A DNA stretch of 64,000 nt, taken from assembly GCA_937899785.1 (NCBI GenBank), contig CALCCG010000002.1, positions 1-64,000 on the forward strand, given 5' to 3'. The translations under genes and the position numbers were made by a program. Under the pieces are notes generated by a model. That model worked only from the letters and a program-made list of their open reading frames with translations, did no database searches and was not told the DNA's origin. Source of the DNA: an uncultured Erythrobacter sp. GTDB taxonomy: Bacteria > Pseudomonadota > Alphaproteobacteria > Sphingomonadales > Sphingomonadaceae. The first letter of the stretch is position 1; each line of letters opens with the position of its first letter. Positions 34,946-36,778 of the stretch are shown piece by piece.

Positions 34946-35014
34946 AAACATACTATTAGGTGAATTTGACGTTTCGACGTACTCTTGCGTGCGCGGCATA
35001 GGAGGAGAGACGAA

Positions 35015-36778
35015 ATGCGGTTTTCCAAGTCCATCCAGCGCGCGCTGACGCTCAGCACGGGCCTTGCCCTCACAACCAGCCTTTTGGCCACCCAGGCTCT
35101 CGCACAGGACGTCTCGCCCGAAGACGAAGAGGAGTCATACGAAGCCATCGTCGTCACCGGGACAAGAGTGACGCAGGGCGGGGCGCAGGACGTCAAGCAT
35201 TTCCGCTCGATCGCGCTCGACGAACTCGACGCGGGCGGGCTGCCCAGCCCGGCCAGCTTCACCGTCGAAGGCCTGCTCAGCGAGCACGACCTGACGCTGC
35301 CGTCCAAAGGCAAATGCGAGCAATTGTTCTGTGTCTCAAGCCACGCCATGGCTTCCACCGCTCGAGCCACCGAACACTTCGTCGGCATCGGTTTTGAAAG
35401 CGGCGTCGACGCGGAAGCCTATCAGGCCGAGCCGCTCAGCCTGATCGCGGTGGTTGACCGCTCCGGCTCGATGAGCGGCCACCCGATCGCCAAGGTCAAG
35501 GAATCGCTCCACGCCATTGTCGATCAACTGCGCGAAAGCGACCGGCTCGGGATCGTGATCTACGGCACGACTTCGCTGGTCCATCAAGAGGTGATTGATG
35601 TCGCCGGCAACGAGGCGGAGCTTCGCCGCGCTATCGATAGCATCGGGATCGATGGCTCCACTTCGATGGAAGCGGGCATGAAGCTCGGCTTTAAAACCGC
35701 CTTCGCCGAACTGGACAAAGCGCGCGGCAAGACCCGTATGATGCTGTTCACTGACGAAAACCCGAACACCGGCAACACCAGTCCGGAAGGCTTTATGGCG
35801 CAGGCTATCGATGGATCGCGCAAGGGTGTCGGGCTCACCACGATTGGCGTGGCCGGGCATTTTGACGGCGCGTTGGCGACCAAAGTCTCCAGCGTTCGCG
35901 GAGGCAATCTGTTCTTCGTGCCCTATGGGGAATCCGCCAAGGACCTGTTCGCCAAGGAATTCGCCAACATGGTCGGCGAGGTCGCGCATGACCTCGTGAT
36001 CTCGATCGACCCCGCCAACGGCGTAAAGGTGGGCGCGATCTACGGCGTGCCCAACACGCTGATTAAAGACGCGGGCACTGGCACGGTCACGATCACCATT
36101 GGCAGCGCGTTCCTCTCGAGCAAGGGAGGCGGCATCTTCGCGACGCTTGAAGGCGAAGCGGAGACCGCTGGCCTGGCGGATATAACCGTCGCGTACACCG
36201 ACGCCGTGTCGCAGAAGCGGGAGAGCGACACCGACTATGTGATCGCCTCACGCAGCCCCCCACCAGACGGGTTGGTGAAGGCGGAGCTGCTGGTCGATCA
36301 ATATGTGACCACAAGCGAAGCGCTCGCGCTATGGCACGAGAAGCGCGACGCCAAGGGCGCGGCCAAGGCGCTCGATGACCTCTCCACGCGGATTGCCGCC
36401 GCCGAACTCGATGGGATGGGCGAGGAGATCACGCTCGTCGACGGGCTCAGACAAAAGGCCAACCGGCTCGCCGGGCTTTCGGGCAAGCGCACGCTCCCGT
36501 CAGACCTTTTCGGCGAATGGCGGGTCTTGCGCCACAAGGGCGTGAGCGATCTTTCGCGTGGCGACTATATCGAGATCACCGATGACGGTGAGTTCATCAC
36601 CGAGCGCACGCGGGGCCGCGACAAGGGCGACACCATCTATCAGGACTTCGCGCTTAACGAACGTCAGATGCACATCGAAGGCTCAGGCCTTGTGTTCAAC
36701 TACCGGGTGCGGGGCGACAAGCTCCGGCTGACCAACCGGTTCGAGGGCACCGAAATCGTTATGCTGCGGGAAGACTAA
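35015..36778 (+). CDS. Secreted von Willebrand factor A domain protein with TonB-box-like N-terminus
   Basis: The 587-residue protein has a signal peptide (about 1-31, LATQALAQ), then EAIVVTGTRV (43-52), a segment typical of the TonB box and plug start of TonB-dependent receptors. A vWA domain covers about 141-330, with the metal (MIDAS) motif DRSGS (148-152) and downstream GSTSM. A cysteine pair (Cys101/Cys106) precedes it. The C-terminal about 85 residues (FGEWRVLRHKGV to the end) look like a small lipocalin-like beta barrel. It is likely periplasmic or surface-exposed. ATG 35015 has a GGAGGAG ribosome-binding site. Function is unknown. Confidence 0.8.
   Translation: MRFSKSIQRALTLSTGLALTTSLLATQALAQDVSPEDEEESYEAIVVTGTRVTQGGAQDVKHFRSIALDELDAGGLPSPASFTVEGLLSEHDLTLPSKGKCEQLFCVSSHAMASTARATEHFVGIGFESGVDAEAYQAEPLSLIAVVDRSGSMSGHPIAKVKESLHAIVDQLRESDRLGIVIYGTTSLVHQEVIDVAGNEAELRRAIDSIGIDGSTSMEAGMKLGFKTAFAELDKARGKTRMMLFTDENPNTGNTSPEGFMAQAIDGSRKGVGLTTIGVAGHFDGALATKVSSVRGGNLFFVPYGESAKDLFAKEFANMVGEVAHDLVISIDPANGVKVGAIYGVPNTLIKDAGTGTVTITIGSAFLSSKGGGIFATLEGEAETAGLADITVAYTDAVSQKRESDTDYVIASRSPPPDGLVKAELLVDQYVTTSEALALWHEKRDAKGAAKALDDLSTRIAAAELDGMGEEITLVDGLRQKANRLAGLSGKRTLPSDLFGEWRVLRHKGVSDLSRGDYIEITDDGEFITERTRGRDKGDTIYQDFALNERQMHIEGSGLVFNYRVRGDKLRLTNRFEGTEIVMLRED

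Follow-up and report, generated by a model that had tools for sequence, protein, structure and literature searches.

The vWA gene and its product

The window, by which we mean the whole 64,000-nucleotide stretch of DNA from an uncultured Erythrobacter that was analysed, carries a gene for a secreted protein with a von Willebrand factor A (vWA) domain, whose features are collected in Table 1. We place the start of the protein at the ATG at 35015 because an AGGAGG element lies upstream of it and because close orthologs begin at the same ATG. The strong signal peptide claimed in the original prediction is evident from the sequence, where a hydrophobic core is followed by a cleavage site between ALA and QD.

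Table 1. Features of the vWA gene and its product, with positions in the window
Feature	Residues	Position	Strand	Description
vWA protein P0001, secreted		35015..36778	+	ORF; 587 aa plus stop
Shine-Dalgarno-like AGGAGG		35000..35005	+	read from sequence
Signal peptide	1-30	35015..35104	+	type I, no lipobox; position-matched in orthologs, otherwise variable
Acidic linker QDVSPEDEEESYE	31-43	35105..35143	+	length variable among orthologs
TonB-box-like EAIVVTGTRV	43-52	35141..35170	+	V47 and T48 invariant
QGGAQDVKHFR	54-64	35174..35206	+	conserved block, family-specific, not receptor-like
LPSPASFTVEGLLSEHDLTLP	76-96	35240..35302	+	corresponds to second half of YfbK N-terminal domain (PF12450) by profile-profile alignment
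vWA domain	143-313	35441..35953	+	PF00092, 2.2e-16; intact MIDAS
Beta-rich C-terminal tail	497-587	36503..36775	+	strands in model; possibly a small calycin-like barrel

The presence of the vWA domain is certain. Its MIDAS, which had been called intact, is complete (D148-x-S150-x-S152, T216 and D247) and is invariant in the 16 aligned orthologs. The protein was also said to have no barrel, and this agrees with our domain searches: Pfam returns neither the plug domain of TonB-dependent receptors (TBDRs; Plug, PF07715) nor any barrel family, and the roughly 270 residues beyond the vWA domain show no receptor match. A lipocalin-like tail, proposed at the same time, fared less well. The tail has no Pfam match, and its strands resemble potempin E, a small beta-barrel, in a Foldseek comparison (TM 0.65 by target length, E 1.5e-3) made with a poor model whose pLDDT is mostly 37-79 per block, so that a lipocalin- or calycin-like fold is weakly supported by the model. 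AlphaFold2 runs on the full protein and on residues 32-340, with three sequences as input, gave mean pLDDT values of 39.5 and 35.4, which are too low for the N-terminus to be read.

A full-length ortholog occurs in 15 of the 301 genomes of the host's taxonomic family, its own genome counted (about 5%). The addition of Erythrobacter colymbi and E. donghaensis gave a set of 17 orthologs, with identities down to 41%. In part of this family the gene is syntenic, its neighbours including genes that look by eye like leuA and recJ. Around the ortholog loci we found neither a Ton gene nor any other partner that recurs as a neighbour, and an operon partner for the gene was rejected for want of a conserved functional neighbour.

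The N-terminal box and receptor boxes

The segment EAIVVTGTRV, singled out in the original prediction as resembling a TonB box, is encoded exactly where it was placed, codon for codon. To describe the resemblance we used an 11-residue matrix. Of the 27 ORFs with a Plug domain in the host genome, 23 supplied the TonB boxes from which it was derived, and those boxes had themselves been chosen by regular expression. On this matrix the window box reaches 15.0, slightly under the 16 to 31 spanned by the receptors themselves; the best score elsewhere within the protein is -0.4, and when the N-terminal region was shuffled 2000 times no shuffle attained the score of the box. Among 217 ORFs from 16 neighbourhoods, 15 score at least 10, of which 12 are orthologs, two are TBDRs and one is something else. 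The shuffles and the scan lead us to reject a chance match.

Conservation of the box is equally clear. Every one of the 17 full-length orthologs has the pattern [IV][IV]VT[AGS] directly past its signal peptide and linker; V47 and T48 never vary, the two positions before them hold isoleucine or valine, and alanine, glycine or serine comes after. In the ortholog alignment the mean column entropy of the box is 0.97 bits, compared with about 2.1 in the signal peptide and linker, and the degeneracy that the box does show is the same as that of the 23 TBDR boxes of its own genome. In the Sphingobium SYK-6 receptor DdvT the TonB box is IIVT at residues 40-43, where V42A and T43A each lower uptake and their combination lowers it as far as a deletion does (PMC6874591). 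V47 and T48 of the window family occupy the same positions as V42 and T43 of DdvT. The acidic linker ahead of the box has the layout found in TBDRs of the same genome, for example AQDIESGEAEEEDNAIVVTGTRL. Beyond the box the likeness ends. A profile of receptor N-termini matches the window protein at residues 44-53 only and finds nothing of the plug, and QGGAQDV, which by eye recalls an LQDVP-like plug start, was rejected as such because the profile match ends at residue 53.

Two orthologs, L008 and L017, have deletions of one and two residues immediately past the box, which fit a flexible junction. A distant homolog from the host genus (L190, G816 C3:477350-478936) retains the body of the protein and lacks both the box and the QGGAQD block, its match to the window-family profile beginning at profile position 57. 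The box is therefore not required for the fold. The original prediction had named homologs with a variable or absent segment as evidence against it; the segment is absent from this distant homolog and kept throughout the full-length orthologs.

The same motif in YfbK proteins and other secreted proteins

Profile-profile alignment of residues 68-331 of the window family with YfbK proteins (probability 99.8%, E 7e-28) identifies the window protein as a divergent YfbK relative. The aligned segments include LP...VEGLL of the window family, set against LPP.DAVR.EEMINYF of YfbK. Pfam finds no PF12450 match in the window protein, and the first half of that domain is not alignable. Assignment to the marine sortase-target proteins (TIGR03788) was rejected, as the score of 35.1 bits against a cut-off of 551.65 comes from the vWA region only. 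The window protein thus shares with the YfbK family a homologous vWA region and the N-terminal box tag that many alphaproteobacterial members carry, but differs in lacking the PF12450 match and the lipobox (many YfbK-type vWA proteins are lipoproteins) and in its other beta-rich C-terminal tail.

A search for the same N-terminal box in other vWA proteins, suggested with the original prediction, recovered it in 25 of 48 alphaproteobacterial YfbK-type (PF12450) linkers (host family, 19 of 31; rest of the class, 6 of 17) and in none of 22 YfbK proteins from other proteobacteria. The position of the tag varies within a proline-rich linker, and three proteins (L047, L052 and L056) carry two copies. 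The YfbK copy of the host genome itself (C153) contains only a poor match, SARIAVTPVQ. YfbK proteins of Bacteroidota probably carry a carboxypeptidase-like domain together with a VVVGYG box.

Some of these linkers hold more than a box. Receptor-like plug beginnings, such as EAIVVTGTRLPQRNVETATPIAVVQSEEFKLSGTVNVSNVVNNLPQVV, lie between linker and body in the YfbK proteins L057 (identical with L028), L036, L060, L085 and L035; the plug start follows a box in L036 and L057, and L035 has a plug without a box. These arrangements suggest repeated capture of receptor N-termini.

Within the host genome, the pattern [IV][IV]VT[AG]x[RK] occurs at 22 sites, compared with 5 for a reversed control. Receptors account for 17, namely 16 with a Plug domain and L152, whose carboxypeptidase-like N-terminus was judged by eye. 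The five remaining sites fall in the window protein, in a secreted protein of 542 residues, in a TraB/GumN-family protein that is represented twice, and in a 71-aa ORF where the box is probably due to chance. The 542-residue protein (L133:565-2190; G000 C39:22836-24461) belongs to no named family, and its identification as a DUF4139/MuiA protein is unsupported by Pfam and NCBIfam. Its box and a plug start lie inside a proline-rich loop in the middle of the protein. Across its homologs this loop is hypervariable in length and sequence, and the box is present by pattern in 30 of 30 members (its own copy and 29 homologs of 42-65% identity), with 25 of the 30 at a shuffle p of at most 0.01. Among TonB-box linear motifs outside the receptors, this family may offer the clearest example.

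In the TraB/GumN-family secreted protein the motif IIVTAQR stands immediately past the signal peptide. It is kept in six of six relatives, all of them close. The two copies (L148, G000 C184:100353, and L145, C137:2) come from contig ends that overlap with slight differences, a matter of assembly.

The distribution described above bears on what the box of the window protein might be. It could be a structural element, either a beta-strand of the body or a brace at its N-terminus, whose resemblance to a TonB box arose by convergence. Since the strongly conserved block Q54-R64 adjoins the box directly, the box may belong to the fold and not be freely exposed. Moreover, IVVTGT could stand in for VSTFSVDVDT, a beta-strand-like stretch that YfbK has at a roughly equivalent place ahead of the shared LP...EE/EG helix. 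This reading has to contend with the receptor-type degeneracy of the box, whose 11-mers mostly score in or near the receptors' range, with the short deletions right past it, with the body that persists without it in L190, with the same motif in proline-rich linkers and loops of other families, and with a local profile alignment to YfbK that starts at residue 68. We consider a structural origin unlikely, while granting it some weight.

The original prediction offered a second possibility, a domain acquired from a receptor. This finds no support in the window protein itself, where the profile of receptor N-termini matches only the box; among YfbK and L133-family proteins, the plug remnants that some members have past their box suggest such events elsewhere. 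A stronger form would make the N-terminus a copy of a receptor gene that has survived its fusion to the vWA body with no box function left. The signal peptide, acidic stretch and box do reproduce the receptor layout, and residues 11-73 of the window protein can be aligned to a receptor with 38% identity (E 0.003). A relic would be expected to decay, yet orthologs as distant as 41% identity retain the box behind a variable upstream flank, as do all 30 L133-family members compared. We regard a functionless relic as very unlikely.

Possible engagement with TonB

We lean, with somewhat more than even confidence, toward the view that the window protein is a YfbK-related vWA protein, soluble in the periplasm (or exported further), with a genuine TonB-docking linear motif. 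The earlier suggestion that the segment engages TonB is supported, as far as sequence comparison reaches, by the presence of the box in every one of the 17 orthologs, its receptor-like degeneracy, and its recurrence in unrelated secreted proteins, and from these we infer that the box may bind TonB. Lying between the signal peptide and the folded body, it would be recognised by the C-terminal domain of TonB, as the boxes of receptors and colicins are, and the candidate readers would be the approximately ten proteins of the host genome that have a TonB_C domain. It is tempting to speculate that the vWA domain holds a second envelope partner through its intact MIDAS; the window protein would then be a TonB-coupled adaptor, or a competitor that limits the TonB available to receptors. 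The box is real and conserved, and the mechanism is plausible. Counted against it are the presence of the gene in only about one in twenty host-family genomes, with no conserved partner nearby, and the distribution of the box in YfbK proteins, which does not follow receptor number in alphaproteobacteria (p = 0.5); taken over all, the relation (p = 0.03) is confounded by ancestry.

TonB is generally seen as serving outer-membrane transporters, and imported toxins are its well-known soluble box carriers. The C-terminal domain of TonB recognises the boxes of both receptors and group B colicins (PMC11658791). With TBDRs such as DdvT the window protein has in common the motif, its place past a signal peptide and acidic stretch, and its degeneracy; TBDRs have in addition a plug and a 22-stranded outer-membrane barrel, both missing here, so that the box alone is common. 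Group B colicins, pyocins and klebicins are closer in being soluble, non-barrel proteins with a TonB box near the N-terminus (PMC11658791, PMC7593965), but these bacteriocins are imported toxins that act on other cells, whereas the window protein is endogenous, carries a signal peptide of its own and contains nothing recognisable as a toxin module. VreA (PA0674) of the PUMA3 system in Pseudomonas aeruginosa is likewise mostly soluble, with a receptor-like N-terminus and no barrel; unlike the window protein, it has an STN signalling domain, a TonB/TolA-like C-terminus and a proposed box located in a helix (PMC2729926). In the vWA force transducers that work on TolQ/ExbB-like motors, vWA folds are tied to trans-envelope motors, as is proposed here, but by a transmembrane helix, in place of which the window protein would use a TonB box (PMC12204202). 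The same paper refers to YfbK of E. coli as a protein free in the periplasm and makes no mention of TonB boxes (PMC12204202). Our literature search, which covered mainly openly accessible papers, found nothing joining 'TonB box' with 'vWA' or 'von Willebrand factor'.

These precedents also allow the box to move the window protein itself across the outer membrane by engaging TonB, in the manner of colicin entry or PopC export. Colicins and pyocins are soluble proteins that bear TonB boxes (PMC11658791), and secretion of the protease PopC is reported to require the TonB-dependent transporter Oar (PMC6434023). The window protein, though, comes with a signal peptide of its own and has no domain like those of bacteriocins; nor does any conserved dedicated receptor or partner adjoin its gene, and we hold its self-transport to be the least probable of the readings considered. 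Alternatively, the box may be a functional linear motif whose reader is something other than the TonB of the receptor system, such as another TonB_C protein, a sorting factor or a protease. The number of TonB_C-domain proteins in the genome, among them the small L198, leaves room for such a reader, and the tagged soluble proteins occupy the right compartment. Nevertheless, the motif is the box of the genome's own receptors, of the type needed for TonB-dependent uptake in a sphingomonad (PMC6874591), and a separate reader seems to us improbable, if well short of far-fetched.

If TonB docking is indeed what the box provides, its recurrence in non-transporter families suggests, from the sequences at hand, an overlooked set of TonB partners. 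The proposed clients are the window vWA family, the YfbK lipoproteins, the L133 family and the TraB/GumN protein, each docking by a portable box. It is possible, although we would stop a little short of calling it probable, that sphingomonads and other alphaproteobacteria harbour a hidden set of endogenous non-barrel TonB clients, and that TonB acts there as a general envelope scaffold or source of force in addition to energising receptors. An endogenous non-receptor class of TonB-box proteins would be new, bacteriocins and VreA being already known. If boxes on endogenous periplasmic proteins are functional, TonB in receptor-rich bacteria has further customers, and two point mutations make it possible to test what the widespread YfbK-type vWA proteins do.

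One of the TonB_C-domain proteins of the host genome deserves separate mention. L198 (G000 C182:20024-20254) is an open frame of 182 residues that combines a TonB_C domain with a signal-peptide-like start and has no visible transmembrane anchor; it is a possible soluble reader of TonB boxes.
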